A DNA stretch of 43,972 nucleotides from Sulfurimonas sp. (GTDB lineage: Bacteria; Campylobacterota; Campylobacteria; Campylobacterales; Sulfurimonadaceae): the NCBI RefSeq assembly GCF_026196735.1, contig NZ_JAPHUF010000017.1, positions 1 to 43,972 on the forward strand. Direction: 5' to 3'. Under the pieces are notes generated by a model. The model was not told where the DNA came from and searched no databases. It worked only from the letters and a program-made list of their open reading frames with translations. The translations under genes were made by a program, and so were the position numbers. Shown here piece by piece: positions 1,280-39,238 of the stretch. The first letter of the stretch is position 1, and each line of letters starts with the position of its first letter.

Positions 1280-2620
1280 TTATCTCTCCGAAAAAACATA
1301 TTGTTTAGATTTAAGTATAGGTTTTAAAATATACTGCATTACAGTTTTTTGTCCTGTTACTATATCTACATTTACAGTCATTCCCGGAATAATCTTTAGG
1401 GGATGTTCTTTTGTGCCTAAATAATTTTTCTCAGTCACTACATGTATAAGATAAAAGGTATTCTCTTTTTTGTCTGTAATAGTATCGGGAGATATATTTA
1501 CAACTTTACCTACGAGCCCACCGTGAATAGCAAAATCATATGCAGATACCTTTACCTTCGCTTCTGCTCCTGGATGGATGAAAGCAATGTCGCTAGGTTT
1601 GATTTTGATCTCTAAAAAAAGTTTTTTATTTGTCGGAACAATCTCTACAAGATCGGCACCTGGCTTGATAACTCCGCCTACAGTGTTTACAAATAGTTTT
1701 TGAACAATGCCCTCAACCGGTGATTTAACCATCGTTCTGTTTACTTGGTCACTAAATGCAATTTGTTGAGTTTGGAGTCTGGATATCTCAGCTAGCACTT
1801 CGCTTAACTCTTCTTTGGCAGTATTTATAAAAAGCTGGCGTGATTCTTTTCTTTTATTTTTAAACTCATCAATAGTAGCTTGTAGTCTAGGCAGAGAAAG
1901 TTTTGCAGCTTCTATATCATTTTCTATGCTGTTTGCTTCTCTTTTGAGCTTTAAAAAATCAACTTTAGACTTGATACCTTCTCTTACCATTGGTGCAGTC
2001 ATCTGTATCTCTTCTGTTACAAACTCCAAAGATTTTTGCAGAGACTTAACTCTTGCACTTGCTTCTTTAAATGCTTGCGTTTTTTGCTTAATCTGATTTA
2101 TATATGAGTTATCTTTGGCATCAAACTCTTTTTTGTTTGAATTATATATATTTTCTGAGAGTTTTATCTGTCTTGCAAATTCTTTATCTTCTACTGTTGG
2201 AGCTTTGAAAGGTGTTTGATTGGCTTGTGCGCGGAGTCTTAAGCTTTTGGCTTCGAGCTCATAGTATTTCATCTCATTTGTACGAGATTCAGATGTTGAT
2301 TTGGCATTATTGATTTTTAAAATCACTTCGCCGGCTTTAACTACCTGACCCTCTTCAACTAATATAGATTCAACAATACCACCTTCAAGATTTTGAATGA
2401 TTTGATTTTGACCATAAGGGATAACATCACCGTCTCCTCTGGTTATCTCATCTATTTCAGCTAATGATGCCCAGATTAAAAAAGCCGCAACAGTAAATAG
2501 CCATACTTTAAGTACTCTGCTCATCCTAGTAGGTGTCTGCTCTAAAACAGCAGCACTTAGACTATTCATAAAATTATAGTCGTTTTTGGTATATTCTATA
2601 GGTTTATTATTTTTTTTCAA
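1280..2620 (-). CDS. HlyD-family type I secretion periplasmic adaptor (LapC-like)
   Basis: 446 residues. A short cytoplasmic N-terminus is followed by one membrane span (about residues 37-55, VWLFTVAAFLIWASLAEI), then the first lipoyl half-motif (GQNQIIQNLEGGIVESILVEEGQVV), a long coiled-coil hairpin (about 110-290), the second lipoyl half (VKSPVEGIVQKLFV) and the C-terminal beta domain (PGMTVNVDIVTG), the classic HlyD order. It would bridge the inner-membrane ABC transporter and the outer-membrane TolC-like protein. The start is TTG at 2620, supported by GGAGG 8 nt upstream; it overlaps the 3' end of the ABC gene by 14 nt, implying translational coupling. The first ATG would be residue 17 and would remove part of the cytoplasmic tail. 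Confidence 0.88.
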   Translation of the reverse strand: MKKNNKPIEYTKNDYNFMNSLSAAVLEQTPTRMSRVLKVWLFTVAAFLIWASLAEIDEITRGDGDVIPYGQNQIIQNLEGGIVESILVEEGQVVKAGEVILKINNAKSTSESRTNEMKYYELEAKSLRLRAQANQTPFKAPTVEDKEFARQIKLSENIYNSNKKEFDAKDNSYINQIKQKTQAFKEASARVKSLQKSLEFVTEEIQMTAPMVREGIKSKVDFLKLKREANSIENDIEAAKLSLPRLQATIDEFKNKRKESRQLFINTAKEELSEVLAEISRLQTQQIAFSDQVNRTMVKSPVEGIVQKLFVNTVGGVIKPGADLVEIVPTNKKLFLEIKIKPSDIAFIHPGAEAKVKVSAYDFAIHGGLVGKVVNISPDTITDKKENTFYLIHVVTEKNYLGTKEHPLKIIPGMTVNVDIVTGQKTVMQYILKPILKSKQYVFSER

Positions 2621-25487: not shown

Positions 25488-25501
25488 TGAATGAATATTC
25501 A
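25488..25501 (+). promoter_or_regulatory. TGAAT-N4-ATTCA palindrome (putative TetR operator) at the hyd promoter
   Basis: TGAAT-GAAT-ATTCA; the inner 14 bp AATGAATATTCATT (25490-25503) is perfectly self-complementary, and a further TGAAT half-site follows at 25507. It lies where a -35 box would be for the TATAAT at 25511, so a bound protein would block RNA polymerase. The same pattern recurs at 33668-33681. Confidence 0.6.
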
Positions 25502-25510
25502 TTTTTTGAA

Positions 25511-25516
25511 TATAAT
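25511..25516 (+). promoter_or_regulatory. Putative -10 box of the hydABCDE-hypF operon
   Basis: TATAAT, 22 bp before the hydA ATG at 25539, in the 156 bp AT-rich gap between the two hydrogenases. The position of the -35 region is occupied by the palindrome at 25488-25501. Confidence 0.5.
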
Positions 25517-25538
25517 TAAAATTGAATGGGAGTATATC

Positions 25539-26690
25539 ATGGAGAAAAATAGTCTGTTTAACAAATTGTCTTCTAGATTGGATGAGTTGTCAAATTTACC
25601 GAAACTTGATGATGAGGTATCGATATCAAAGTTGATTGAAGAGAAAGGCTTTTCAAGAAGAGAGTTTATGAGTTGGGCGGGAGCTATGACAGCCATGTTG
25701 ATGCTCCCTGCTAGTTTTACCCCTCTTGTTGCAAAAGCTGCTGAACTAGCAGATAGACTTCCTTTGGTTTGGCTTCATATGGCGGAGTGTACGGGATGCA
25801 GTGAATCACTGCTTAGGTCTGCAACACCGAGCATAGATAGTCTGATATTTGATTATATTTCACTAGAGTATCATGAAACGATTATGGCAGCGGCGGGTTG
25901 GCAGGCTGAACACAATCTTGAACATGCCATGGAAAAATATAAAGGCAGATACATCTTAATGGTTGAAGGCGGTATTCCGCACGCTCAGAGTGATTACTTC
26001 TTAACTATCGGCGCTCACGGTAAAACGGGAGAACAGAGTGCAAGGGAAGCTTCGGAAAATGCTGCGGCTATTTTTGCAATCGGTTCCTGTTCATCTTTTG
26101 GCGGTGTTCAAGCGGCATATCCAAATCCTACAAATGCAACGGCACTTAGCAATGTTACGGACAAACCTGTTATAAATGTACCGGGGTGTCCGCCGAGCGA
26201 GAGCAATATTGTCGGAACGCTGCTTCACTTTATTCTTTACGGAACGCTTCCTGCGCTTGATGTTTTTAACAGACCAAAATGGGCTTACGGACTTAGAATC
26301 CATGACTCTTGTGAGAGAAGAGGCAGATTTGATGCAGGTGAATTTGTAGAGGAGTTTGGAGACGAGGGCGCAAAAGATGGTTACTGTCTTTATAAAGTAG
26401 GCTGTAAAGGACCGTACACTTTTAACAACTGTTCAAAACAGAAGTTCAATCAAGGTACTTCTTGGCCTATTCAGGCAGGACATGGTTGCATGGGTTGTAG
26501 CGAGCCAGATTTCTGGGATAAAATGGGAATTGTTCACGAGCCTCTCGGCGATAGACTTTATCATACGGTCTTTGGCGGTCTTGGTGCAGATGCAACGGCG
26601 GATAAAATCGGTGTTGGAATTTTAACGGTTACTGCAATAGGTATAGCGGCACATGCGGCGATTTCGCTAATTAAAAACCCAAAAGAATAA
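25539..26690 (+). CDS. hydA: [NiFe] uptake hydrogenase small subunit, membrane-bound (group 1)
   Basis: 383 residues from the ATG at 25539, chosen for GGGAG 6 nt upstream; the in-frame ATG at 25491 falls within the operator and -10 region. Twin-arginine signal SRREFMSWAG (R40-R41) with hydrophobic core, so exported folded with HydB. The proximal cluster is intact (ECTGCSESLL), with further Cys in GSCSSFGG, PGCPPSE, the distal-cluster HDSCERRGRF, and YKVGCKGPYTFNNC and HGCMGCSEPDF. A C-terminal membrane anchor (about 355-378, VGILTVTAIGIAAHAAISLI) holds the enzyme to HydC. Oxidises periplasmic H2, passing electrons to cytochrome b and quinone. First gene of hydABCDE-hypF. Confidence 0.96.
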   Translation: MEKNSLFNKLSSRLDELSNLPKLDDEVSISKLIEEKGFSRREFMSWAGAMTAMLMLPASFTPLVAKAAELADRLPLVWLHMAECTGCSESLLRSATPSIDSLIFDYISLEYHETIMAAAGWQAEHNLEHAMEKYKGRYILMVEGGIPHAQSDYFLTIGAHGKTGEQSAREASENAAAIFAIGSCSSFGGVQAAYPNPTNATALSNVTDKPVINVPGCPPSESNIVGTLLHFILYGTLPALDVFNRPKWAYGLRIHDSCERRGRFDAGEFVEEFGDEGAKDGYCLYKVGCKGPYTFNNCSKQKFNQGTSWPIQAGHGCMGCSEPDFWDKMGIVHEPLGDRLYHTVFGGLGADATADKIGVGILTVTAIGIAAHAAISLIKNPKE

Positions 26691-26705: not shown

Positions 26706-28439
26706 ATGTCAAAAAGAGTAATAGTTGACCCCATAACAAGAATAGAGGGACATTTAAGAGCCGAAGTAATAGTAGGGGATGACGGAGTAGTTCAAGACGC
26801 TTTTGTCTCTTCTACTCTTTGGAGAGGATTAGAAGTAATAGCAAAAGGGAGAGACCCTAGAAATATACCTTTGATGATGCAAAGAATTTGCGGCGTTTGT
26901 ACATATTCGCACTATTTAAAAAGTACGATTGCCGTTGAAGATGCACTCGGAATTAAGATTCCTTATAATGCGGAGCTTGTAAGAACGCTTATGAATGCGG
27001 CTCTGTTTTTACATGACCATGTCGTTCATTTTTATCATCTGCACGGAGTTGACTGGGTCGATATCGTTTCTGCACTCTCAGCTGATGAGGCAAAAGCTAG
27101 TAAATTGGCTTTTAAATATACGGACAATCCTATAGGAACAGGCGAAAATGAGCTTAAAAAAGTAAAAGAAAAAGTGGCAAAATTTGCTAAAAATCCTCAA
27201 GGACTAGGACCCTTTGCAAATGCATACTGGGGGCATAAAACATATAGACTCACGCCTGAGCAAAATCTTATAGCGCTTTCACACTATTTAAAGGCACTTG
27301 AGATTCAAAGAACGGCGGCGCAGATAATGGCAATATTTGGCGGTAAAAATCCACACCCTCAGAGTTTGGCGGTAGGCGGCGTTACATGTGTTATGGATCT
27401 TCTTAATCCCGCTAGAATGGGCGAATATTTAGTGAAGTATCAAATAATAGCAGATTTTGTAAACAACGCTTACTATGCAGATATCGTAATGGCTGCAGAG
27501 ATGTATAAAACAGAGCCTTCGGTTATGAAGCCTATGGGTGTTAAAAACTTTATGGCGCATAAAGAGTTTATGATAGGCAGAGAAGAGTATCTTTTTGATA
27601 GCGGAATCATTATGAACGGAGATTTGAGTAAGGTTTTTGAGATTGATGAAGATAAGATAACGGAAGAAGCTACCCACTCTTGGTATAAAGACGATGCTCC
27701 ACAACACCCATACGAGGGAACTACAAACCCAAACTATACGGGTTTTATAGACGGTCAATCAGTCGGGCCTGACGGCAAAATGACAGATTCTAAGATGATT
27801 AACGAAAAAGAGAAGTACAGCTGGATAAAATCGCCTAGATATAACGGCGAACCTATGGAAGTCGGTCCGTTGGCATCTATACTGGTCGGTTACGCAAAAG
27901 GGAACAAAAAAGTACAAGCAGTTGTAAATGAGTTCTTGGCTAAAACAGGCGTTCCTGCGGCTGCTCTGTTTTCAACCCTGGGAAGAACCGCAGGACGAAT
28001 GCTGCAGGCAAAACTTGTTGCAGATAATGCGCTTGTTGCTTTTAACAATCTGATAGAAAACCTTAAAGTTGATCAAGAGACTTGCGCTACTTATGTAATA
28101 GATAAAGATAAAGAGTATAAAGGCAGAGGCATAGGCGATGTACCACGCGGGATGTTAAGCCACTGGATTAGAATCAAAAACGGCGTTGTCGAAAACTATC
28201 AAGCCGTAGTTCCTTCAACATGGAATGCGGGACCGATGGACTCTAAAGGTGCAAAAGGACCTTACGAGGCGGACTTAATCGGACTAAAGATAGAGGATTT
28301 AACGCAACCGCTTGAGATAATCAGAATCATTCACTCTTATGACCCGTGTATAGCATGTGCAGTACATGTAATGGATACAAAAGGCAAAACGTTAAGCCAG
28401 TATAAAATCGACCCGCTTTACGGCGGATGCACTATTTAA
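26706..28439 (+). CDS. hydB: [NiFe] uptake hydrogenase large subunit, membrane-bound (group 1)
   Basis: 577 residues, standard size. N-terminal ligands RICGVCTYSH and C-terminal DPCIACAVH (546-554), followed by a 23-residue tail (VMDTKGKTLSQYK...) that must be removed after His554 by HydD once nickel is inserted. This contrasts with the tail-less large subunit at 24123-25382. No signal peptide; it is co-exported with HydA by its Tat leader. AAGGAG lies upstream of the ATG; 15 nt follow hydA. Resembles the Wolinella/Helicobacter enzymes (group 1b). Confidence 0.97.
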   Translation: MSKRVIVDPITRIEGHLRAEVIVGDDGVVQDAFVSSTLWRGLEVIAKGRDPRNIPLMMQRICGVCTYSHYLKSTIAVEDALGIKIPYNAELVRTLMNAALFLHDHVVHFYHLHGVDWVDIVSALSADEAKASKLAFKYTDNPIGTGENELKKVKEKVAKFAKNPQGLGPFANAYWGHKTYRLTPEQNLIALSHYLKALEIQRTAAQIMAIFGGKNPHPQSLAVGGVTCVMDLLNPARMGEYLVKYQIIADFVNNAYYADIVMAAEMYKTEPSVMKPMGVKNFMAHKEFMIGREEYLFDSGIIMNGDLSKVFEIDEDKITEEATHSWYKDDAPQHPYEGTTNPNYTGFIDGQSVGPDGKMTDSKMINEKEKYSWIKSPRYNGEPMEVGPLASILVGYAKGNKKVQAVVNEFLAKTGVPAAALFSTLGRTAGRMLQAKLVADNALVAFNNLIENLKVDQETCATYVIDKDKEYKGRGIGDVPRGMLSHWIRIKNGVVENYQAVVPSTWNAGPMDSKGAKGPYEADLIGLKIEDLTQPLEIIRIIHSYDPCIACAVHVMDTKGKTLSQYKIDPLYGGCTI

Positions 28440-28449
28440 GGGAGTCATT

Positions 28450-29163
28450 ATGCAAAGTGTTGATACATTAGAAAAAAATTCTCTTAATCATGCCGATGAA
28501 ACTATTGAGAGAGAGCTAGAGTTTACTTCGTTTTATAGATGGCACCACTGGATTAGGGTGTTTAGTATAATTATATTAACGGTTACGGGGTTTTATCTCT
28601 CTGTTCCTTTTATAATTCCTGCAGTAAATGCAGAGCCGACAAACTTTTTAAATGCAGAGTTTAGAGGTGTACATGAGATATTTGGATTTATTATGATTTC
28701 TATGTTTATAGGAAAGACATACTACTTCTTCTTTTCGGTAAAAGATAAGATTGAAATCAACTCTTTTAAGGATGTTTTGAGCCTTAAAAATTGGCTTAGT
28801 CAGATAGGTTATTATCTGCTTTTAACAAAGCATCCAAAGCTAAGCGGAGCGTACAATGTTATACAGCTTTTGGCTTATTTTGTCTTTTACATTGCTATTA
28901 CAGGTTTGATTATAACAGGGCTTATTCTTTATGTTCATAGTTTTCATCTTGGAATGGGCGGTGTATTGTATGATAGTATGAGAGCCATTGAAGCAATGAT
29001 AGGCGGTCTTGCTGCAGTTAGAGAGCTGCATCATCTTCTTATGTGGGGAGTAATCTTTTTTGTAGTCGGACATGTTTACATGGTAGTTTTTAATGCCGTT
29101 CACGGAAAAGAGGGAACAGTTGATTCTATATTTAGCGGATATAGATGGAAAAGAAAACATTAA
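28450..29163 (+). CDS. hydC: Hydrogenase cytochrome b subunit
   Basis: 237 residues, four membrane spans (about 38-60, 75-95, 140-163, 194-215). Candidate haem ligands: His in RWHHWIR at the start of TM1, HEIFGF in TM2, and HHLLMWG plus GHVYM in the last span, the expected di-haem b pattern. Transfers electrons from HydA to menaquinone. GGGAG precedes the ATG, 10 nt after hydB. Confidence 0.94.
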   Translation: MQSVDTLEKNSLNHADETIERELEFTSFYRWHHWIRVFSIIILTVTGFYLSVPFIIPAVNAEPTNFLNAEFRGVHEIFGFIMISMFIGKTYYFFFSVKDKIEINSFKDVLSLKNWLSQIGYYLLLTKHPKLSGAYNVIQLLAYFVFYIAITGLIITGLILYVHSFHLGMGGVLYDSMRAIEAMIGGLAAVRELHHLLMWGVIFFVVGHVYMVVFNAVHGKEGTVDSIFSGYRWKRKH

Positions 29164-29172
29164 GGGTTTATA

Positions 29173-29718
29173 TTGAAAATTTTAATTCTTGGTATCGGTA
29201 ATATTCTATTTGGAGATGAGGGCATAGGTCCTCATCTTGCAAATTTAATAGATGAAAAGTATGAGTTTGTGTCAAATGAACATGTTGTAGATGTTCTTGA
29301 CGGCGGTACTTTGGCTCAGAGACTTATCCCGATTATCACCGATTATGACAACGTTTTACTTATAGATTGTGTTAACGTAACAGATGGAAAAGTCGGAGAT
29401 GTTTACAGTTTTAACTTTAATGACGTGCCTGATTTTATAACATGGAATGGGAGCGCTCATGAGGTCGAAATGCTGCAAACCCTACAGATGATTGAGATGC
29501 TCGGCGACCTCCCTACCACTAAAATTGTGGGTGTTATCCCGCATGTAATCGGGGAAAACAGTACATTTTCAATGACTGAAGAGGTTTTAAAAGCAAGCTT
29601 AACTATGGAGAGAGTTGTCACAAAACATATAGAAGATTTTGGAGTTAAAGTTCTTATCAGAAAAAAAGTGACCTTGGAAGAGGTCTCAAAATATACATAC
29701 TTAAAAGGCACACAATGA
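29173..29718 (+). CDS. hydD: Hydrogenase maturation endopeptidase
   Basis: 181 residues, HybD/HyaD family. Start TTG at 29173, with AAGGG 7 nt upstream. The N-terminal GIGNILFGDEGIGPHLA contains the family Glu/Asp nickel-binding motif (DEGIG), a second Asp is in VLLIDCVNV, and the His is expected in AHEVEM. Cleaves the HydB C-terminal tail. It is the only such protease in the window, consistent with the cytoplasmic large subunit needing none. Overlaps hydE by 4 nt (ATGA). Confidence 0.92.
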   Translation: MKILILGIGNILFGDEGIGPHLANLIDEKYEFVSNEHVVDVLDGGTLAQRLIPIITDYDNVLLIDCVNVTDGKVGDVYSFNFNDVPDFITWNGSAHEVEMLQTLQMIEMLGDLPTTKIVGVIPHVIGENSTFSMTEEVLKASLTMERVVTKHIEDFGVKVLIRKKVTLEEVSKYTYLKGTQ

Positions 29719-31385
29719 TATTGGAGTTTTCATTTAACTATCTCTCATCATCTTTGATTTATGAAAAAATAATTTTAAATACGCTTGGAATATTTTTCTT
29801 TGAATCAAAAATTATAAAAAGCGCAGATAATCTATTTTTGTATGTAAAATCAGATGATAGCAATGAGTTGGAGAGTTTTGCAAACAGACTCTCACTTGAG
29901 TTGCCTCACTCGATTTTTTTACATGAAACAGATGTCAAAGTCGTAGATGAGATGCCGCAAGAGAGTTCTGTTTTACCTCAATTACAAAAACTTCCTATGG
30001 CATTTTGCCCTAAGTGTTTGCGTGAAGTTATGGATGAGTCAAACGAGAACTATTACAATATTTTTCATGAGTGTGAAGTCTGCGGATACGATGTTCATGG
30101 CGAAAAAAAGAGCTATAAAGATGATTTTGTAAATCTTGCAAAATCAATAAGCAGTGGTTTGGTAGTTGAAGTAAATACGTTTTACGGGAAATATTTCATT
30201 GGTAAATTAGGTAAAAAATGTAATGAGGTTGATTTTGATATTATCAGTTATGATTTAGGTACGATTGCACACTACACAAATGGTACAAACAGCGAAATGG
30301 CGGCACTTGGAGCCATTGAGAAACCTTTTGTAAAGTTAAAAACAAACATCAAATTTAAAATGGATTTTGAAGATGTCGCAGATGAACTTATCCGTTTTAA
30401 ACTCCCTGATGATTTAGTTTTGCATCTTTTACTACATGAGCTTCATAAATTGGGGATTAATCTAATCTTTATTACAAAAGAGAAGCTTCCTTTTGATGTC
30501 AAGTTTGATTTAGCGGAGTATGAAAAAGAGCTAGAGCCTATCGAAGTTGTCGTCGGCGATAATCATATCGCCATAGTAAGAGGAGAAAAAGGTCTGCCAT
30601 ATCAAAATCTAAGTAACAGCAATGATTTAATCCCTCATGTAGGAGCTTTTTTCTCGGTTATAAAAGAGCACTCTTTGTTTGATAACACGGTTGTTGGAGT
30701 AAACATCTCCAAAATGTATCACAATAATATTTTAGTCTATTGTAAAAAATTCGGAACTATAGAGTATCTCTCATTTGCGTTTAAATTTGACTCTGTTAAA
30801 GATGTGTTTGATTCTATCATGAGTTCAAATGAAAGCGGCAAGAAGCTGGTAGAGAACTTTAAAAACAAATTTCCAGAGCATTTTGAGGCAATATCTGCCA
30901 TAACATTTAATGAAGAAGAGTTTAACGTTTACAAACTCTGGGGTATAGTTTCCATAGTTTTAGGTTACTCAAAAGATAAAAATATTTTTGCATCTGCAAA
31001 AGTGCTTGAAGATAGTGCGAGTTCATTTTTTGGAACAAAAGGTCCAAGAATTGACTATAAACTAAAAAGAGTTGACTCTAAGGTTTACTTAGACCCATTG
31101 ATGACGATTAGAACCGCTATGAGTTTCAAGCTGGCGGATGTTGATAGACTTACGCTTAGTTACGGGGTTATTGAGAGTTTTGTGGAGTTTGTCTCAACTC
31201 AATTGGATGAGATAAAAGAGGAGATGAAAAGCGATGCTGTGGTTGTAACGGGTTCACTTTTACAAAATAGACATCTTTTTAGTAAACTTAGCAAAGAAGT
31301 TTCTATAAATCATAAGCTATACTTCAATAAAGAGTTGCCGATAGACGGAAAAAATATTTTATACGGCGGAAATGAATTGTTTTGA
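29715..31385 (+). CDS. hydE: Hydrogenase accessory protein HydE, a reduced HypF paralogue
   Basis: 556 residues. In Helicobacter pylori the hydE product at this locus is needed for hydrogenase activity, but its mechanism is unclear. Comparison with the HypF encoded next shows shared features: one zinc finger at 98-123 (CPKCLREVMDE ... CEVCG) that lines up with the HypF finger CQECLADIKDE ... CTNCG; a YrdC-like strand (SGLVVEVNTFYGKYFIGKL against EGNILAIKGIGGFHII); and a C-terminus at 509-556 (TGSLLQNRHL, YFNKELPIDGKN, GGNELF) aligning with HypF SGGVFQNKTL, YFQQETATNDGG, LGQLYCVF. The second zinc finger and the HxxxH metal motif are not visible, so it is probably not a full carbamoyltransferase. 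Not to be confused with the [FeFe] HydE. Confidence 0.82.
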   Translation: MILEFSFNYLSSSLIYEKIILNTLGIFFFESKIIKSADNLFLYVKSDDSNELESFANRLSLELPHSIFLHETDVKVVDEMPQESSVLPQLQKLPMAFCPKCLREVMDESNENYYNIFHECEVCGYDVHGEKKSYKDDFVNLAKSISSGLVVEVNTFYGKYFIGKLGKKCNEVDFDIISYDLGTIAHYTNGTNSEMAALGAIEKPFVKLKTNIKFKMDFEDVADELIRFKLPDDLVLHLLLHELHKLGINLIFITKEKLPFDVKFDLAEYEKELEPIEVVVGDNHIAIVRGEKGLPYQNLSNSNDLIPHVGAFFSVIKEHSLFDNTVVGVNISKMYHNNILVYCKKFGTIEYLSFAFKFDSVKDVFDSIMSSNESGKKLVENFKNKFPEHFEAISAITFNEEEFNVYKLWGIVSIVLGYSKDKNIFASAKVLEDSASSFFGTKGPRIDYKLKRVDSKVYLDPLMTIRTAMSFKLADVDRLTLSYGVIESFVEFVSTQLDEIKEEMKSDAVVVTGSLLQNRHLFSKLSKEVSINHKLYFNKELPIDGKNILYGGNELF

Positions 31386-33619
31386 AAAGATATAGATATT
31401 TTATAAAAGGACAGGTTCAAGGTGTCGGATTTCGTCCTTTTATATATAAGTCGGCACTCGATTTCAAACTCGCAGGTTTTGTCAAAAACGACATAAACGG
31501 AGTGGAAATTGAAGCAGAAGCACAGCAGAAAGATATAGAGCTTTTTGAAGAGTCGCTCCGCTTCAAACTCCCGCCGCTTGCAAGAATAGACGATATACAA
31601 AAAACAGAGATAGAACCGCTTTTAAAAAAAGGCTTTGCGATTATACAAAGCTCTGATGACTCAAAAACCTCATACAAATCTGCTCTTATTCCTCCCGATA
31701 CTGCTACATGTCAAGAGTGTTTGGCAGATATAAAAGATGAGAAAAACAGAAAATATCATAACTATTTTGCCACAAACTGTACAAACTGCGGACCTAGATA
31801 CTCAATTATAAAAACAGTTCCCTATGACAGAAAAAATACATCCATGCAGAAGTTTAAGATGTGCAGATCGTGCGAAGAAGAGTACAATAATCCCTTAAAC
31901 AGAAGATACCATGCACAGCCGATTTCATGCAACAATTGCGGACCTGCGTTGTCTCTTTTTAGAGGCGATAAAAAAGTAGATATTGCTCAAAAAGAGATTA
32001 TCCAAAAAGTCGCTTCTCTCATAGAAGAGGGAAATATTTTAGCCATAAAAGGCATAGGCGGATTTCATATAATCTGCGATGCAACGAATGATGAGGCGGT
32101 AAAAAAGTTAAGAGAGTTTAAACACAGACCCACAAAACCTTTTGCCATCATGTGCAAAGATTTGGAGCAGATAAAGGCTTTGGCGTATGTAAACGAGAAA
32201 GAAGAACAACTACTGACATGTAAAGAAGCGCCCATCGTCATACTGAAAAAGCTTACATGTCAAAACAATGTCAAAATATCACACTTTTTAGCTCCAAATA
32301 TTGACAGGATAGGCTGCTTTTTGCCTTACACCGCCCTTCATCATCTTCTCTTTGTACATCTGCAAAATCCCATAGTCGCCACAAGCGCAAATCTCGGCGA
32401 CGAGCCTATCATCATAAACGCAGAAAACATTTTTAAAAAGCTTCCTTTTGTTGATTTTACTCTTGATTTTGACAGAGATATTATAAACGGAGTTGACGAC
32501 TCGCTCGTTCAGGTCGTAGAGGGTAAAACGCAGATACTAAGACTCGCTCGCGGATACGCTCCAAAGGTAATAAAACTCCCATTTAAAAGCGAGAAAAAAA
32601 TCTTGGCAGTCGGAGCAAATGCAAAAAATTCCATAGCTTTTGCGATGGACGATAATATTATATTCTCTCCGCATATCGGAGATTTGGACTCTATGGAAGC
32701 TTTTGGATTTTTTGAGAGAACCATCGAGACTTTTAAACGCTTTTACGATTTTGAACCTGACATCATAGTGCATGACAGACATCCAAACTATGAAACGACC
32801 AAATGGGCGAAAAAACAGAACAAAGAGCTTGTAGAAGTACAGCACCATTTGGCACACATCTACGCCTGCAAAGCGGAGTTCGGACTTAGGGGTGATTATC
32901 TTGGATTCAGTTTTGACGGCACGGGTTACGGAGATGAGGGCACACTTTGGGGCGGAGAGGTTTTTGTAGGAGACAAACGCAAATACAGTTTCAAGCCGGT
33001 AAAACTTCTGGGCGGCGAAAAGGCCATAAAAGAGCCGAGACGCGTTGCTCTAAGTATGCTTTTTGACAAACTCTCTTTAGAAGAGGTTTTAAAGCTTGAA
33101 CTAGACCTTGTAAAATCCTTTTTGCTTGTAGAAATTAAAATGCTTCATCAAAGCTACGTAAAAAATCTAAACGCACCAAAAAGCAGCTCAGTGGGAAGAC
33201 TTTTTGATGCCGTTGCTTCATTTTCAGGCATTGCCCAGAGAGTAAGCTATGAGGGCGAGAGCGGACTTTTGTGTGAGAGTTTTTATGACAAGAACATAGA
33301 AAAATGCTTCGACTACACAATAGACAACGGCGTGATAGATATTAAAATAGCAGAGTACATGTTAAAAAATAAGCCGGATAAAAAAGAGCTAAACTCCATG
33401 TTCATAAACACGCTTGTAAAAATCATCGTAGATATCTCAAAAAGAGAAAAACTTGAAGTGATTTTAAGCGGCGGAGTTTTTCAAAACAAAACTCTGCTTG
33501 AGCTTACATGTCAAGAGTTGAAACAAGAGAAAATCAAATACTACTTTCAGCAAGAAACGGCTACCAATGACGGCGGAATTGCTTTGGGGCAGCTTTATTG
33601 TGTTTTTCAAAAAGAGTAA
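31382..33619 (+). CDS. hypF: Carbamoyltransferase HypF
   Basis: 745 residues, full length. Acylphosphatase domain (1-90, QGVGFRPFIYKSA), two zinc fingers (about 108-190: CQECLADIKDE, CTNCG; CRSCEEEYNNP, CNNCG), YrdC domain (about 205-390, KRPTKPFAIM-like HRPTKPFAIMCKD) and Kae1-like carbamoyltransferase domain (about 400-745) with VQHHLAHIYA and SGGVFQNKTL. Makes the thiocarbamate on HypE from carbamoyl phosphate. Start TTG at 31382, overlapping the hydE stop by 4 nt. Last gene of the hyd transcript. Confidence 0.95.
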   Translation: MKRYRYFIKGQVQGVGFRPFIYKSALDFKLAGFVKNDINGVEIEAEAQQKDIELFEESLRFKLPPLARIDDIQKTEIEPLLKKGFAIIQSSDDSKTSYKSALIPPDTATCQECLADIKDEKNRKYHNYFATNCTNCGPRYSIIKTVPYDRKNTSMQKFKMCRSCEEEYNNPLNRRYHAQPISCNNCGPALSLFRGDKKVDIAQKEIIQKVASLIEEGNILAIKGIGGFHIICDATNDEAVKKLREFKHRPTKPFAIMCKDLEQIKALAYVNEKEEQLLTCKEAPIVILKKLTCQNNVKISHFLAPNIDRIGCFLPYTALHHLLFVHLQNPIVATSANLGDEPIIINAENIFKKLPFVDFTLDFDRDIINGVDDSLVQVVEGKTQILRLARGYAPKVIKLPFKSEKKILAVGANAKNSIAFAMDDNIIFSPHIGDLDSMEAFGFFERTIETFKRFYDFEPDIIVHDRHPNYETTKWAKKQNKELVEVQHHLAHIYACKAEFGLRGDYLGFSFDGTGYGDEGTLWGGEVFVGDKRKYSFKPVKLLGGEKAIKEPRRVALSMLFDKLSLEEVLKLELDLVKSFLLVEIKMLHQSYVKNLNAPKSSSVGRLFDAVASFSGIAQRVSYEGESGLLCESFYDKNIEKCFDYTIDNGVIDIKIAEYMLKNKPDKKELNSMFINTLVKIIVDISKREKLEVILSGGVFQNKTLLELTCQELKQEKIKYYFQQETATNDGGIALGQLYCVFQKE

Positions 33620-33698: not shown

Positions 33699-34340
33699 AT
33701 GGAAAATGTCGGATTGTTGCTTATTTTTTGGTACGGGGTATTGCATGCTTTTGGACCTGACCATCTTACGGCTATTGCAGATTTTTCAATCGGTAAAAAC
33801 AAAAAGAAAACTATGCTCATTACTACTCTTTTTGCGCTCGGACACGGATTGTCTCTTTTTGTATTTGCAAAAATATTAGAGAGTTATCATGTAAGCGAGG
33901 CTATTTTAGGATACGGAGACCTTATCTCCTCATTGGTGATTCTAAGCATCGGTATATATCTTTTGTTTATGGTTTTTACAGATAGAATAGGTTTAAAAAA
34001 ACATACGCATGACGGCAGAGAGCATCTTCATGTGTTTTTTGGAAAAGAGCATACTCATGACAGCAGGGACACCGCTTCCGCATTTACCATAGGAGCATTG
34101 ATGGGCATAGGCGGAGTTCGCGGAATGCTTATAACGCTTGGAGTAATTGAGGGACAGAGTGTTGATTTTGTAATGGTTTTGGCTTTTACACTTGGAGTTA
34201 TGAGTATATTTGTAGGTTTCGGGTTAGTCATACTCTATATTAATAAAAATCTACTAAACTCAAAACAGAACTTAAGAAGAGTTTTTGCAACTGCCGGAGT
34301 CGTCTCCGTTGTCGTCGGCTCTAACATGCTAGTCGGATAA
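33699..34340 (+). CDS. NicO-type nickel/cobalt permease
   Basis: 213 residues with about six membrane spans. The N-terminal HAFGPDHLTAIADFSIG carries the HxxxxDH nickel-binding motif of nickel/cobalt permeases, and GHGLSLFVFA follows in TM2. A His-rich cytoplasmic or loop segment (about 104-126: KKHTHDGREHLHVFFGKEHTHD) separates the two halves. C-terminal half: GALMGIGGVRGMLITLG. GAGGAG lies upstream of the ATG. Leads directly into hypB, so nickel supply for hydrogenase is the likely task; a sulfite or metal efflux role is less likely. Family-level call. Confidence 0.8.
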   Translation: MENVGLLLIFWYGVLHAFGPDHLTAIADFSIGKNKKKTMLITTLFALGHGLSLFVFAKILESYHVSEAILGYGDLISSLVILSIGIYLLFMVFTDRIGLKKHTHDGREHLHVFFGKEHTHDSRDTASAFTIGALMGIGGVRGMLITLGVIEGQSVDFVMVLAFTLGVMSIFVGFGLVILYINKNLLNSKQNLRRVFATAGVVSVVVGSNMLVG

Positions 34341-34378: not shown

Positions 34379-35149
34379 ATGTGTAAAGATTGCGGCTGCA
34401 GCGTTGTAGAACATAGCCATTCACACGAACATCATCATGGGGATTCGCATGAACACCAGAGTGCTCATAAGCATCTACATGACAATCCACAGTTAAATGA
34501 CCCTAAAACCATCTCGATTATTACGAAGATTTTAGATAAAAATGACAAAGAGGCACAGCATAATCGTGAGCATTTTAACTCTCACGGCGTTTTGTGCATA
34601 AACCTTATGAGCAGTCCCGGAAGTGGAAAAACTGCACTTTTGGAGAGTTTGTCGGATTTGGCTGATTTTAAATTTGGTGTTGTTGAGGGCGACTTGGAGA
34701 CAAGCAGGGATGCGGACAGACTAAAAGCAAAAGGGATACAGGCTCATCAGATTCAAACGGGTTCGGCTTGTCATCTGGACGCGTTTATGGTTCATAAAGC
34801 TCTGCATCACATGGATTTGGACAATATGGACGTATGTTTTATAGAGAATGTCGGAAACCTCGTCTGCCCTGCAAGTTATGACGTGGGGAGCCACTTAAAC
34901 ATAGTGCTTGTCAGTGTTCCCGAGGGCGAAGACAAGATAGCCAAATATCCCGTTATGTTTCGTCAAGCAGATTTGATTCTTTTTACTAAAACAGACCTGC
35001 TCCCGTACTTTGAGTATGATATTGAGAAAGAGAAAGACTCGGCGAGAAAGTTAAAGCCGGGTGTTGACATACTTGAAGTCAGCACCAAAGAAGTGAACTC
35101 AATAAAAAAAGTTTCCCAGTGGATAAAGTTTAAAATGGAGATGAGATAA
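34379..35149 (+). CDS. hypB: Nickel-inserting GTPase HypB
   Basis: 256 residues. The N-terminus has a CxxCxC-type nickel site (CKDCGC) and a His-rich stretch of about 30 residues for nickel storage. G domain: P-loop SSPGSGKTAL (about 79), EGDLETSRDADR, then the metal-site GSACHLD, IENVGNLVCPA, and TKTDLLPY (specificity). Delivers nickel to the large subunits with HypA. AAGGA precedes the ATG. Its TAA overlaps the hypC ATG by one base. Confidence 0.96.
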   Translation: MCKDCGCSVVEHSHSHEHHHGDSHEHQSAHKHLHDNPQLNDPKTISIITKILDKNDKEAQHNREHFNSHGVLCINLMSSPGSGKTALLESLSDLADFKFGVVEGDLETSRDADRLKAKGIQAHQIQTGSACHLDAFMVHKALHHMDLDNMDVCFIENVGNLVCPASYDVGSHLNIVLVSVPEGEDKIAKYPVMFRQADLILFTKTDLLPYFEYDIEKEKDSARKLKPGVDILEVSTKEVNSIKKVSQWIKFKMEMR

Positions 35150-35439
35150 TGTGCCTTTCAATACCCTCAAAAGTAGTAAAAATAGACAAAGAGAATGAGA
35201 TAGCAACGGTAGATACTATGGGCGTGCAAAGAGAAGCCTCTTTATCTTTGATGAGCGAAGAAGATATACATGTAGGCGATTATGTGCTTCTGCATATCGG
35301 ATTTGTGATGAACAAAATCGATGAAAAAGAGGCACTGGAGAGTTTGGAGCTTTATAGAGAGATTATAGATGCTATGAACGAAGAGGATAGGCAGCTGGCG
35401 ATTTTAGAAGCAGATGAGTGTTCAAATCAAGGAGACTGA
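35149..35439 (+). CDS. hypC: Hydrogenase maturation chaperone HypC
   Basis: 96 residues. MCLSIPSKV start with the essential Cys2 that holds the Fe(CN)2CO group with HypD; GDYVLLHIGFVMNKIDEKEA is the family core. The single HypC presumably serves both hydrogenases, although a dedicated HybG-like paralogue is not seen here. TAATG junction with hypB; hypD starts 1 bp after its stop. Confidence 0.95.
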   Translation: MCLSIPSKVVKIDKENEIATVDTMGVQREASLSLMSEEDIHVGDYVLLHIGFVMNKIDEKEALESLELYREIIDAMNEEDRQLAILEADECSNQGD

Positions 35440-35440
35440 G

Positions 35441-36583
35441 ATGGAGCTAGAACTAAAAAATCTGTATGATGACTTTAGAGATGCAGACACCATAAAAGCT
35501 TATGCAAAAATCATAAAAGTGGATGCGGCAAAGCTGAAAAATTCTATAAACATCATGGAAGTCTGCGGCGGACATACGCATACCATCATGAAGTACGGTC
35601 TTCCTCAGCTTCTGCCCTCAAACATCAAGTTTATCCACGGTCCGGGCTGTCCGGTTTGCATCATGCCAAAAGAGCGCATTGATCATGCCTATGTTTTAAG
35701 TATGCAGCCGAACGTTATACTCGTAACTCTAGGCGACATGATAAAAGTACCCGGAAGCAACGGCAGTCTGCAAACTGCAAGAAGCAAAGGTGCAGATGTC
35801 CGTTTTGTCTATTCTCCTCTTGAATGTCTAAAAATCGCAAAAGAGAATCCGACTAAAAAAGTCATCTTTTTCGCTATAGGATTTGAGACTACGACACCGA
35901 TGAGTGCCGCACTTTTAGACGCGGTTATAAAGCAGAACATCAAAAACGTCTTCTTTCACATAAACCATGTAACCGTTCCCGAAGTTATGCGTGAACTTAT
36001 AGACTCCAGAGACATACATGTTGACAGTTACAACAACAAAATAGATGCATTTTTAGGACCCTCCCATGTAAGTGTAATCAGTGGAAGTAAAATCTATGAA
36101 GAGTTCCCAAGGGACTACAACCGTCCCGTAGTCGTTTCTGGTTTTGAGCCGGTTGATGTCATGCAGGCAATCAGCATGATAGTAAAACAGTTTATAGAGG
36201 GCAGATGCTCTCTTGAAGTGGAATACAAACGACTTGTGACTTATGATGGAAATGTCAAAGCGCAAGAACTTGTAAATAGATACTTTGACAAAGCAGACCT
36301 CTTTAAATGGCGAGGTTTAGGAAACATACCAAAAAGCGGACTAAAACTAAAGTTAGAGTTTAAAGAGTATGACGCAGAGGATATCTACAAAGATATTTTG
36401 CCAATTGGCGAGATAGAAGACCATAAACTCTGCATCTGCGGAAATATCTTAAGAGGCATGGCAAATCCACCAGAATGTACTATTTTTGGCACTGCATGTA
36501 AACCAACTTCACCCATAGGAAGCTGTATGGTAAGCTCTGAGGGAGCGTGTGCGGCTTATTATAAGTATGGGAATTTGGTATGA
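35441..36583 (+). CDS. hypD: Hydrogenase maturation protein HypD
   Basis: 380 residues from the ATG at 35441, which has AAGGAG 7 nt upstream; the ATG at 35414 inside hypC is rejected. Conserved motifs: EVCGGHTHTIMKYG, HGPGCPVCIMP, FAIGFETTTP, and the [4Fe-4S] region near the C-terminus (LCICGNILRGMANPPEC, FGTACKP, SEGACAAYYKY). Scaffold for assembling Fe(CN)2CO with HypC. Its TGA overlaps hypE by 4 nt. Confidence 0.96.
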   Translation: MELELKNLYDDFRDADTIKAYAKIIKVDAAKLKNSINIMEVCGGHTHTIMKYGLPQLLPSNIKFIHGPGCPVCIMPKERIDHAYVLSMQPNVILVTLGDMIKVPGSNGSLQTARSKGADVRFVYSPLECLKIAKENPTKKVIFFAIGFETTTPMSAALLDAVIKQNIKNVFFHINHVTVPEVMRELIDSRDIHVDSYNNKIDAFLGPSHVSVISGSKIYEEFPRDYNRPVVVSGFEPVDVMQAISMIVKQFIEGRCSLEVEYKRLVTYDGNVKAQELVNRYFDKADLFKWRGLGNIPKSGLKLKLEFKEYDAEDIYKDILPIGEIEDHKLCICGNILRGMANPPECTIFGTACKPTSPIGSCMVSSEGACAAYYKYGNLV

Positions 36584-37578
36584 ACAAAACAATAAGCCTA
36601 GCTTGTGGAAACGGTGGAGAAGAGAATAACGAACTTATCTCTCAGGTTTTTTACAAAGCCTTTAAAAATGAGATACTTGACAAAAGTGAAGATGCAGCAA
36701 TTATTCATAACGGAGAGTTGGCATTTTCAACGGATAGTTTTACGGTTTCGCCTCTTTTTTTTGCGGGAGCGGACATTGGTAAGCTTGCGGTTTGTGGTAC
36801 ATGTAACGATTTGGCTATGATGGGTGCTGCTCCGAAGTATTTGACATGTAGCGTAATTATAGAAGAGGGTTTTGAGACTAGAGAGCTTGAGCGAATCGTG
36901 CGGAGTATGAAAAAAGAGCTTGAGATTAACGGGGCTATTGTCGTAAGCGGAGACACTAAAGTTGTACCTCGTGGGAGTGTTGATAAGATTTTTATAAACA
37001 CTACGGGAATCGGTAAAGTTTTAAAAAAAGGTATCAGCTCAAACAACATAAGTAAGGATGATGTCATCATTGTAAACCGTGATATTGGGTGTCATGGGGC
37101 GGCTATTTTTGTGGCGCGCGAAGGCATTGAGATGAGCAGTTCGCTTAAAAGTGACTGTGAATCACTCTTTCCTCAGGTAGAAGCCCTTTTGGATGCAAAC
37201 ATAAAGATAACTGCCATGAGAGATGCGACAAGAGGCGGAGTGAGTGCGGTTTTAAACGAGTGGTCGAGGCAGTCAAATATCTGCATCGAGGTTGAGGAAG
37301 AGATCATTCCCGTCAGTGATGAGGTAAAAGGTATCTGCGAGATGCTCGGTTTTGAAGCGACTGCTTTGGCGAATGAGGGTACCTTTGTGTTGGCGGTAAA
37401 TCATGAAGATGCACCAAGAGCAGTTGAGATTTTAAAAACTTTTGAGAGTTGCAAAAATGCAGCGATTATCGCCAAAGTAACAGACACTCATCTAAAAAAG
37501 GTTATTTTAAAGAGTAGTTGGGGAACTTCACGGTTTTTAGATACGCCAAGCGGTGAACTGCTTCCAAGGATTTGCTAA
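36580..37578 (+). CDS. hypE: Cyanide-forming maturation protein HypE
   Basis: 332 residues, PurM/AIR-synthase fold. LACGNGGEENNELI near the N-terminus (Ser/His replaced by Cys/Asn relative to the usual GSGG), TDSFTVSPLFFAGADIG, GTCNDLAMMGA, SGDTKVVPRG, MRDATRGG. Ends in PRIC with the C-terminal Cys332 that HypF carbamoylates and HypE dehydrates to thiocyanate. Overlaps hypD by 4 nt; hypX starts 4 bp after its stop. Confidence 0.96.
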   Translation: MNKTISLACGNGGEENNELISQVFYKAFKNEILDKSEDAAIIHNGELAFSTDSFTVSPLFFAGADIGKLAVCGTCNDLAMMGAAPKYLTCSVIIEEGFETRELERIVRSMKKELEINGAIVVSGDTKVVPRGSVDKIFINTTGIGKVLKKGISSNNISKDDVIIVNRDIGCHGAAIFVAREGIEMSSSLKSDCESLFPQVEALLDANIKITAMRDATRGGVSAVLNEWSRQSNICIEVEEEIIPVSDEVKGICEMLGFEATALANEGTFVLAVNHEDAPRAVEILKTFESCKNAAIIAKVTDTHLKKVILKSSWGTSRFLDTPSGELLPRIC

Positions 37579-37582
37579 AGTT

Positions 37583-39238
37583 ATGAAAATACTTCTTATT
37601 GTTTCGGCTTTTAACTCTCTTACACAAAGAGTTTTTTGTGAGCTTCAAGATATGAATCACACAGTGTCGGTGCAGTATGCCATAAGCAATGAGGCGATGA
37701 TGCAGAGTGTTGATGAGTTTAAACCAGATATCGTATTTTGCCCGTACCTAAAAAAGTATCTCCCAAGTGAGATATTTCTAAAAACTCCCACTTTTATTCT
37801 CCATCCCGGCATAAGAGGAGACAGAGGACACAATGCGCTCGACCATGCCATAAGGGAAGATAAAAAAGAGTGGGGCGTTGTCATACTTAGAGCAAACGAA
37901 GAGTTTGACGGCGGAGATATATACGCCGAGGTCAGATTCGAGATGAGAGATGCTACAAAGGCTTCCATATATAGAAACGAAGTAGCTGATGCCGCTTCAA
38001 AAGCCTTAAAAGAGCTGCTTAAAAATTTGGATGACAAAGAGTTTAAACCCACTCCTCAACTCAAAATGCCGATGCATAATTACTTAACGCAAAAAGAGAG
38101 AGCTATTGATTGGCAAAAAGATACGACAAAAGAGATTATAAAAAAGATACATGTAAGCGATAGTTTTCCCGGTGTAAAAGATGAGTTTTTTGGGATAGAG
38201 TGTTATCTCTTTGGAGCGTGGAGAGAAGATAAACTCAAAGGCAATCCAAAAGAGATAATCGCAAAAAGAGACGGTGCTGTTTGTGTCGGAACCATTGATG
38301 GCGCTTTATGGATAAGCCACTTGCAAGAAGTCGGCAGGTTTAAACTTCCCTCAACTTATGTTTTAAAAGATAAAATCAAAGGCGTTAAAGAAGAGCGGCT
38401 TCCTCTTATTTTTGACATGAGTTATAAAACATTTTACGAAATCAGCTCCCATAAAGACGGCGATGTGGCGTATTTGTGTTTTAACTTTCACAACGGCGCT
38501 ATGCATTCTGAACAGTGCATCAGGCTAAAGTATGCGTTTGAGCATTTAAAAGAGAGTGCAAAAGTCATTGTGCTTATCGGCGCGCAGGATTTTTTTAGCA
38601 ACGGCATACATCTAAATATTCTTGAAGACTCTAAAAAACAGGGAGAGGATGGATGGAGCAACATAAATGCCATGAATGATGTTGTAAAATCAATACTTTT
38701 TGCAGATGATGTCATCACGGTTGCATCTCTGCATAAAAATGCAGGAGCAGGCGGAGTGTTTTTGGCTCTTGCTTGTGATTATGTTGTGACATGTAAAGAT
38801 GTTGTTTTAAATCCGCACTATAAAACTTTGGGTCTTAGCGGAAGCGAGTATCACACATTTACACTGCCAAAAAGAGTAGGAGAAGAAAAAGCCGAAGAAC
38901 TTTTAAATAAGTGTCTGCCAATCAGTGCAAACAATGCTTTTGGGATTGGCATGATTGATGAAGTTTTTGAAGCTGATGGTTATTTTGACTCTTTAAATGA
39001 ATTTTCTCAAAAACTATGTGAAGATGAAGATGAATATAGCGATTTTTTATATGATAAAGAGGAGTTTTTATCCAAAAACCTTCATATAATTGAGCAAAAA
39101 AAAGAGGAAGAATTAAAAGTGATGCATTCTGAGTTTTGGGATAAAGATAGCTCTTTCCATAAACTAAGATATGAGTTTGTGTATAAAGTGTGTGCATTAC
39201 AAACACCTCAAAGATTAAAAGGAAATTTAGATGCATGA
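37583..39238 (+). CDS. hypX: HypX (HoxX), CO-ligand-forming maturation enzyme
   Basis: 551 residues from the ATG at 37583 (an upstream in-frame start at 37553 is inside hypE). N-terminal formyltransferase-like domain (FILHPGIRGDRGHNALDHAI; LRANEEFDGGDIYA), middle domain to about 270, then an enoyl-CoA hydratase-like domain (about 290-540: LIGAQDFFSNGIHLN, HKNAGAGGVFLALACDYVV, NPHYKTLGLSGSEYH). In Ralstonia and Aquifex, HypX makes the active-site CO from a formyl group via formyl-CoA and is important under oxygen. Its presence between hypE and hypA suggests hydrogenase assembly at microaerobic or higher oxygen. It overlaps hypA by 8 nt. Confidence 0.92.
   Translation: MKILLIVSAFNSLTQRVFCELQDMNHTVSVQYAISNEAMMQSVDEFKPDIVFCPYLKKYLPSEIFLKTPTFILHPGIRGDRGHNALDHAIREDKKEWGVVILRANEEFDGGDIYAEVRFEMRDATKASIYRNEVADAASKALKELLKNLDDKEFKPTPQLKMPMHNYLTQKERAIDWQKDTTKEIIKKIHVSDSFPGVKDEFFGIECYLFGAWREDKLKGNPKEIIAKRDGAVCVGTIDGALWISHLQEVGRFKLPSTYVLKDKIKGVKEERLPLIFDMSYKTFYEISSHKDGDVAYLCFNFHNGAMHSEQCIRLKYAFEHLKESAKVIVLIGAQDFFSNGIHLNILEDSKKQGEDGWSNINAMNDVVKSILFADDVITVASLHKNAGAGGVFLALACDYVVTCKDVVLNPHYKTLGLSGSEYHTFTLPKRVGEEKAEELLNKCLPISANNAFGIGMIDEVFEADGYFDSLNEFSQKLCEDEDEYSDFLYDKEEFLSKNLHIIEQKKEEELKVMHSEFWDKDSSFHKLRYEFVYKVCALQTPQRLKGNLDA

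Follow-up and report, generated by a model that had tools for sequence, protein, structure and literature searches.

HydE of a Sulfurimonas hydABCDE operon is a diverged relative of HypF and may be a dedicated hydrogenase maturation scaffold

The hydABCDE operons of Campylobacterota raise the question of what their last gene does. In Helicobacter pylori hydE is required for hydrogenase activity, according to the accessible text of PMC7695850, which cites Benoit 2004. In the passages available, PMC7695850 and PMC5557546 (the latter on HydD and HydE) call the function of HydE unknown or incompletely understood, and PMC4992972 says that HydD and HydE localise the complex to the membrane. Here we examined the question in a stretch of 43,972 nucleotides from Sulfurimonas sp. 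(contig NZ_JAPHUF010000017.1, positions 1 to 43,972; hereafter the window), in which the gene lies as follows:

29715..31385, + strand: hydE, 556 residues, an apparent HypF-derived pseudoenzyme by its open reading frame and profile comparisons with HypF.

Our results make it virtually certain that HydE is homologous to HypF, and with moderate confidence we regard it as a non-catalytic maturation scaffold or chaperone dedicated to the HydABC hydrogenase.

The homology is carried by profile comparison. Profiles of 95 HydE and 69 HypF sequences are collinear in hhalign (E 1.5e-31, score 263), against nine null scores of 13-23 and a range of 9-23 for shuffled and reversed profiles, including those at domain level. 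Earlier nulls, drawn from 13 unrelated proteins of the window and from HypF profiles that were reversed or shuffled by column, gave 12-24 versus about 190 for the real pair, and together with the domain-level nulls they led us to reject chance similarity. A profile of 24 HydE-family proteins retrieved solved HypF structures (8.6e-34, 4e-19 and 1.2e-10) and matched the HypF profile at E 1.8e-23 across 592 columns. A preliminary description of this locus, made from the DNA letters alone, had taken HydE for a degenerate, probably non-catalytic relative of the HypF encoded beside it and had named comparison of hidden Markov models as the check; the match is highly significant and bears the proposal out. 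Each of four segments of HydE also matches its own collinear counterpart in HypF separately:

29715..29984, + strand: degenerate acylphosphatase-like domain, HydE residues 1-90; hhalign E 3e-7 to HypF 22-71, GxVQGVGFR loop absent.
30006..30086, + strand: zinc finger 1, residues 98-124, with its four cysteines kept; aligned to HypF by BLASTP and hhalign.
30105..30608, + strand: shortened YrdC-like domain, residues 131-298; hhalign E 2e-11 to HypF 204-394, KRPxKP and TSAN lost.
30609..31382, + strand: predicted Kae1-like second subdomain, residues 299-556; hhalign E 9.8e-11 to HypF 485-743, HHxAH lost.

Since the finger-free segments match alone, two unrelated proteins with only a zinc finger in common were rejected as an explanation. 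The acylphosphatase match is an addition to the preliminary description, which had seen finger 1 match position by position. The finger match is real, with hhalign E 4.6e-10 for residues 91-130 and BLASTP E 1e-4 for HydE 96-124 against 108-137 of the neighbouring HypF (the sole convincing BLASTP match), but it contains a single-residue gap, which makes the wording slightly overstated; Pfam zf-HYPF stayed below its cut-off there (0.031). What had been described as a YrdC-like strand is YrdC-like, and it is in fact a whole shortened domain. The likeness of the last 48 residues to HypF held for profiles, with 2.1e-4 for solved HypF 3vth (residues 438-548) and 7.2e-6 for Pfam HypF_C_2 (residues 431-548), but not for BLASTP against the neighbouring HypF, which gave no match there. 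With 26.4 bits against a cut-off of 27, HypF_C_2 comes near to revealing the kinship for the window HydE, and it exceeded the cut-off in two of three HydE relatives scanned. TIGR00143 matched at 4.6e-9 (best stretch residues 53-124) with 35 bits, under its curated cut-off of 466. The first Kae1 subdomain (Pfam HypF_C) is absent from the window HydE, with no Pfam match and with the C-terminal alignment beginning at HypF 485. By class, the long class C (641-650 residues) scored 191 against HypF in hhalign, the window's class A 68 (E 1.2e-7), and classes B and D 45 and 46 (hhalign probabilities 52 and 64%); class-to-class matches link them into one family (E 3e-64 to 3e-32).

Fold comparison pointed the same way for part of the protein. 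An AlphaFold2 model built without HypF rows, from the window HydE and nine relatives, had a predicted local distance difference test (pLDDT) score of 49 with these ten close rows, but a clear b-a-b-b-a-b N-terminus. When it was searched with Foldseek against 350,542 PDB chains, ranks 1-7 were HypF chains (best 3.4e-8), rank 8 was 1k7j, presumably a YrdC-family protein, and rank 9 was E. coli HypF, with TsaC2/Sua5 among the further hits. TM-scores of ranks 1-9 were low (0.19-0.32 of the query) and Foldseek also uses sequence; we take the ranking as support, not proof. HypF kinship of the N-terminal and YrdC parts is in this way supported by the fold search too. The Kae1-like part, for which the models were of low confidence (the C-terminal model, pLDDT 47, was not used), is assigned by profiles only.

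Trees agree with the term paralogue that the preliminary description had used for HydE. HydE forms a single clan, separate from HypF (support 1.0, branch 1.8; 100/100 in a tree with ten long-class rows) and is placed on the Campylobacterota side of the HypF tree (98/99), on a very long branch (4.2) and with odd composition in 12 of 31 rows. The alternative, with all Campylobacterota HypF together and HydE outside, was not rejected by the approximately unbiased (AU) test (p-AU 0.2). The trees and the AU result make HydE a paralogue of HypF and not a recent copy of its neighbour, and origins from Campylobacterota HypF or earlier are both compatible with the AU value.

What HydE has lost speaks to its chemistry. 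In the alignment of the 95 HydE and 69 HypF, 115 HypF columns count as near-invariant (95% or more), and half or more of HydE members keep only 14 of them: 2/16 in the acylphosphatase domain, 5/27 in the fingers, 2/34 in YrdC, 0/12 in the first and 5/26 in the second Kae1 subdomain. Cys, Gly or Pro account for ten of the 14. HydE frames shorter than 450 residues and an interrupted Acaryochloris HypF (longest frame 484 residues) were left out as rows. The GxVQGVGFR loop, KRPxKP, TSAN and HHxAH, which we take to be catalytic in HypF, are all gone, except for one His in the window protein. In the 95 HydE, R18 is kept in 3% and N36 in 1% (acylphosphatase), R249 in 1%, K252 in 5%, S335 in 2% and N337 in 8% (YrdC), and H488 in 1%, H489 in 13%, the window protein included, and H492 in 3% (HHxAH). 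The loss of finger 2 and of the HxxxH site, noted earlier for the window HydE, is thus confirmed, with one His still aligned to HypF H489. HydE accordingly looks, from sequence, like a pseudoenzyme, a HypF without most of its active-site residues. Passing on of the carbamoyl group, once suggested as a function, is disfavoured with the signature residues gone; the reaction of HypF is described in the accessible part of PMC12134894.

The zinc fingers vary within the family. Four CxxC motifs are present in 23 of the 95 HydE, finger 1 only in 33, one CxxC in 14, none in 24 and two at other spacing in one; the window HydE has finger 1 only, one of the two four-cysteine fingers of HypF. With HypF as outgroup on the FastTree topology, our reading is that finger 2 was lost at least three times, and an unrooted parsimony count gives 2. 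All eight zinc cysteines are retained in 18/18 members of the long class, which keeps 32/115 columns, among them K223 and R390 (18/18), D373 (17/18) and D512 (15/18), and lacks the same four motifs. These long two-finger relatives, labelled "hypothetical protein" in both plasmid records examined, can now be named. Frames of 629-754 residues in some genomes were rejected as HypF, since the HydE model gave them 149-201 bits and the HypF search did not report them.

In a further reading to be weighed, the old fold would still carry chemistry, new or residual, and HydE would be an enzyme that helps, for instance, to supply HydB with ligands or iron. S66, E202, P204, G443, D447, S470 and G513 are 98-100% identical in the 95 HydE; P204, G513 and probably G443 are common to HypF, while the polar residues S66, E202, D447 and S470 lie outside its near-invariant columns and are family-specific. 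These residues, the K223, D373, R390 and D512 of the long class, and an anaerobic source of the CO ligand that PMC12134894, in its accessible part, calls unresolved would all suit such an enzyme. Against it stand the loss of the acylphosphatase loop, KRPxKP, TSAN and HHxAH, a HypX-like gene in the window and a fused-type hydrogenase of the same phylum that manages without HydE (see below), and we consider it very improbable.

The gene is nevertheless a functional one under purifying selection. The ratio of nonsynonymous to synonymous substitution rates (dN/dS) was 0.12-0.19 for HydE (7 relatives), compared with 0.09-0.15 for HypF (4), 0.06-0.08 for HydD (6) and 0.02-0.05 for HydB (6), and on these values a decaying pseudogene was rejected.

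Among 298 Campylobacterota genomes of at least 90% completeness, 277 have HydB and 284 a match to the HydE profile. HypF is caught by this profile too, and genomes were therefore sorted by score, HypF reaching at most 96 bits (69 sequences) and HydE at least 194 bits (95 sequences). HydE was seen in 273 of the 277 HydB-bearing genomes. Above about 107 bits lay 253 of the 277, and the 24 weakest were examined singly: 19 have a HydE frame of 471-754 residues from beginning to end, 15 of them confirmed with separate HydE and HypF models (149-321 bits), the call in G188, G307, G349 and G387 resting on position beside HydB, and G355 has a 380-residue form in its operon. No HydE was found in G047, G053, G079 and G412, whose sole HydB, at 47-48%, lies beside a small subunit of about 805 residues, fused in the scanned case (L166) with pyridine-nucleotide oxidoreductase and [2Fe-2S] domains. 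Conversely, all 14 genomes without a HydE profile match (including G418) are also without HydB. Among HydB-less genomes, G346 retains hydC-hydD-hydE without hydAB (L163 5230-8328), G331 has short HydE and HydD pieces, G316 has a HydE stretch with several stops, and weak matches in G069, G071, G081 and G282 were taken as probable HypF cross-hits. A single-sequence scan of genome contigs with HydE found 9 close relatives, a plasmid search two records, both from Campylobacterota, and a scan of viral contigs no HydE relative. HydE is thus retained with HydABC hydrogenases and not with NiFe maturation in general, and its presence with almost all enzymes of this kind makes a dedicated role as a helper in their assembly probable.

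Some observations accompany this survey. The fused small subunit spans 2714-5125 of L166 (G047), where a Pfam scan, made for L166 only, found an N-terminal pyridine-nucleotide-disulphide oxidoreductase and a BFD-like [2Fe-2S] domain; frames of 805-811 residues occur in L013, L060, L167, L168 and L169. The HydB beside it stands at 45-48%, no HydE adjoins it in L060 and L166-L169, and the enzyme is apparently soluble and linked to NAD(P). Upstream of the G346 remnant in L163 there are a RecJ-like and a pseudouridine-synthase gene. HydE is split into three frames in L156 4064-6000 (G030) and into two in L051 2548-4473 (G006), fragments that fell below the 450-residue limit, and open copies lie elsewhere in G030 and, of class A, in G006. 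Copy numbers are lower bounds, as a limited number of candidates (four in the main searches) was scored per genome.

Gene neighbourhoods show the same pairing. In 78 loci selected for containing HydE, it lies within 4.5 kb downstream of 82 of 85 HydB frames; the others are in a locus split between contigs (L051), in a second, fused-type operon (L060) and, as an incomplete frame, at the edge of a locus (L142). HydC/HydD come before 81 of the 85 HydE frames with at least 370 residues, and HypF comes directly after 57 of the 85. In the 19 weak-scoring genomes HydE is no more than about 5 kb from HydB in ten and not in nine; it lies beside HypF in G389 and G409 (L192 and L193 are among such loci) and with hypF and hypBCDE in L117 and L123. 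Such positions of hydE, away from hydAB and beside hypF or other hyp genes, are in keeping with a maturation factor. HydE follows its hydrogenase type in all of the seven genomes that have two hydABC operons (7/7): identity is 21-24% between the two HydE of one genome, and 46-79% between each of them and a HydE beside the same type of hydrogenase in a different genome. G127 and G149 carry both classes, with the long HydE apart from its hydAB and a type II HydB (53-54%) elsewhere on the same contig. Across 58 three-gene operons, HydE distances correlate with those of HydB at rho 0.72 and of HypF at 0.43 (partial rho for HydB given HypF 0.69; 0/500 permutations). Within type II, rho is 0.79 with HydA, 0.74 with HydB, 0.44 with HydC and 0.51 with HydD. 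In six type II operons (L052, L053, L063, L148, L149 and L156) we also observed that the HydD-like protease gene comes after hypF and that the other strand carries another protease-like gene close by.

A natural fusion points to the partner. Three close relatives of one genus encode a 593-residue HydA-HydE fusion:

L187 (G411), 1957-3738: HydA-HydE fusion frame.
L188 (G419), 1891-3672: HydA-HydE fusion frame.
L189 (G414), 1929-3710: HydA-HydE fusion frame.

Residues 36-331 are a HydA homologue (345-350 bits) that retains the Fe-S cysteine motifs and is without the twin-arginine (RR) signal for twin-arginine translocation (Tat), and residues 324-586 correspond to 293-534 of the HydE model (i-E 6e-20 to 9e-18); Pfam reported only small-subunit domains in the two fusions scanned. 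The same genomes also carry an ordinary HydA (RRDFMK) in a hydABCD operon and a separate full-length HydE. Among 3,016 frames in 202 loci, mostly hyd operons and not a survey, these were the only ones matched by both models, and in a plasmid search with the fusion no record covered 80% of the query. A stand-alone hydA2 is annotated in Campylobacter jejuni and may be a relative. Fusions of this kind suggest cooperation between the joined proteins, and here the fusion of the C-terminal domain of HydE to HydA points to hydrogenase subunits as its partner.

This bears on the view that HydE binds HypE in place of HypF, as a regulator or partner that would steer cyanated HypE to a HydB-specific scaffold. 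The HypF architecture kept in HydE is compatible with it, and the HypF-HypE complex is stable according to the part of PMC12134894 seen. However, HydE keeps only 14 of the 115 near-invariant HypF positions, its fusion partner is a hydrogenase subunit, and no retained HypE-contact surface was demonstrated in a comparison that did not extend to single residues of 3vti; such a role seems decidedly unlikely.

The fusion also bears on a role in export, in which HydE would be a small-subunit/Tat or membrane-assembly chaperone comparable to HyaE/HupG, holding HydA-HydB until HydC docks. By analogy this is possible, and less likely than a scaffold in maturation: HydE is found with the cytochrome-b-linked HydABC and not beside the fused-type enzyme, and in three genomes its C-terminal domain is joined to a HydA homologue that has no Tat signal, but its HypF ancestry points to the cofactor pathway, and in some genomes where it lies away from hydAB its neighbours are hypF or other hyp genes. 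A search for HupH/HyaF-type factors gave no match in any of 101 genomes sampled (101/101; the E. coli control was positive), which leaves room for a client-specific maturation helper. A HyaE family search matched in 97/101 genomes, 93 over the cut-off, with a best score of 32 bits and frames of about 100-190 residues, in the window's genome on another contig; we read these as thioredoxin-like cross-hits and did not use them.

Loss of the motifs, dedication to the cytochrome-b-linked HydABC and the fusion to HydA together argue for the client-specific maturation scaffold, and the chaperone specific for the group 1 enzyme that the preliminary description had among its options fits both the genomic data and the fusion. 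A HypF duplicate would have lost the signature residues of carbamoyl transfer and become a scaffold or chaperone for the exported, cytochrome-b-linked HydABC. It would bind immature subunits, HydB and/or HydA, its HypF-derived surface would perhaps meet the Hyp machinery, and Fe(CN)2CO insertion, cleavage by HydD, HydA-HydB pairing and Tat export would be ordered on the right enzyme. A bolder version makes HydE the founding case of a pseudo-carbamoyltransferase that has become an assembly platform specific for the hydrogenase, as a rule one for each HydABC enzyme of the phylum. Its domain would replace the small subunit or hold on to it, as the natural fusion suggests, and a new conserved site (S66, E202, D447 and S470) would do a step that no Hyp protein performs, such as holding or delivering Fe(CN)2CO to HydB; we judge this version improbable.

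Several points weigh against the maturation scaffold. Binding of partners by HydE is itself a prediction, and the fusion is seen in three close relatives only. HydA, HydB, HydC and HydD track HydE about equally (rho 0.72-0.76), as co-inheritance would give, and within type I HypF tracks it as well (0.68). Because HydE goes with exported enzymes, it may also have its part in their Tat export or in membrane assembly. The long class retains potentially active positions, so "inactive" is safer for the window's class, and finger 1 is missing in 39/95 HydE, which argues against a universal finger-based contact.

Around hydE the window holds an apparent hydrogenase operon of a Sulfurimonas-like genome, with these further genes:

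25491..26690, + strand: hydA, hydrogenase small subunit (TIGR00391, 2.8e-156).
26706..28439, + strand: hydB, NiFe hydrogenase large subunit (PF00374, 1.9e-211).
28450..29163, + strand: hydC, hydrogenase cytochrome b (TIGR02125, 8.9e-64).
29173..29718, + strand: hydD, HyaD/HybD-type maturation protease (PF01750, 1.4e-27; TIGR00140, 1.6e-42, slightly below cut-off).
31382..33619, + strand: hypF, complete, 745 residues (TIGR00143, 2.6e-230).
32843..32857, + strand: HHLAH site of HypF, residues 488-492, lost in HydE; presumably a metal or active site.
34379..37578, + strand: hypB, hypC, hypD and hypE, maturation machinery and putative co-workers of HydE.

The order is hydA-hydB-hydC-hydD-hydE-hypF, then hypB-hypC-hypD-hypE and a formyltransferase/enoyl-CoA-hydratase fusion, so that hydE follows hydD of a cytochrome-b-linked hydrogenase operon as a hydABCDE member does. 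It overlaps its neighbours by 4 nucleotides at both ends (ATGA with hydD, TTGA with hypF). Pfam finds the acylphosphatase domain, two fingers, YrdC, HypF_C and HypF_C_2 in the window HypF. The formyl-transferase and enoyl-CoA-hydratase fusion lies directly after hypE (37553-39238), and its domain order is what we take to be the HypX/HoxX architecture, presumably for supply of the CO ligand. Between hypF and hypB, 33699-34340 encodes an apparent membrane protein of 213 residues, conserved beside hypF/hypB in many loci and without a Pfam or NCBIfam match at 1e-5; it is possibly a nickel transporter. A second complete HypF of the same genome, 47-48% identical to that of the window, lies with hypB, hypC, hypD and hypE on contig C13 (locus L067; the window is contig C9).

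HydE as a HypF without its signature residues offers a concrete hypothesis, with HydA, HydB, HypE and HypC-HypD as candidate partners. It explains the failure of hypF to substitute for hydE, and HydE would exemplify how an enzyme can be recruited to the maturation of one particular client. The open-access passages searched, with subscription papers mostly outside them, hold no statement that HydE derives from HypF, and the kinship is probably unreported. The radical SAM protein HydE of [FeFe]-hydrogenases has only its name in common with the window HydE and is unrelated to the HydE of hydABCDE. The common name can mislead searches, for example with the accessible text of PMC4794192. HydE of H. 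pylori (HP0635) has the same A-B-C-D-E operon position as the window HydE, whose tie to the H. pylori and Wolinella proteins consists of synteny and of homologues from other families within their order. With HypF, the carbamoyl-HypE ligase (TIGR00143; 3vth/3vti, 4g9i and 3tsp), HydE shares homology across nearly its whole length, in collinear acylphosphatase-like, zinc-finger, YrdC and Kae1-like segments. Unlike HypF, the window protein is about 190 residues shorter, without finger 2 and the first Kae1 subdomain, and has lost the signature motifs. The origin of HupK lies in the large subunit, not in HypF. A title among the references of PMC12134894 names HupK a scaffolding protein. In the way it may work, HydE would have its precedent in HupK/HoxV, the scaffold dedicated to one other hydrogenase.

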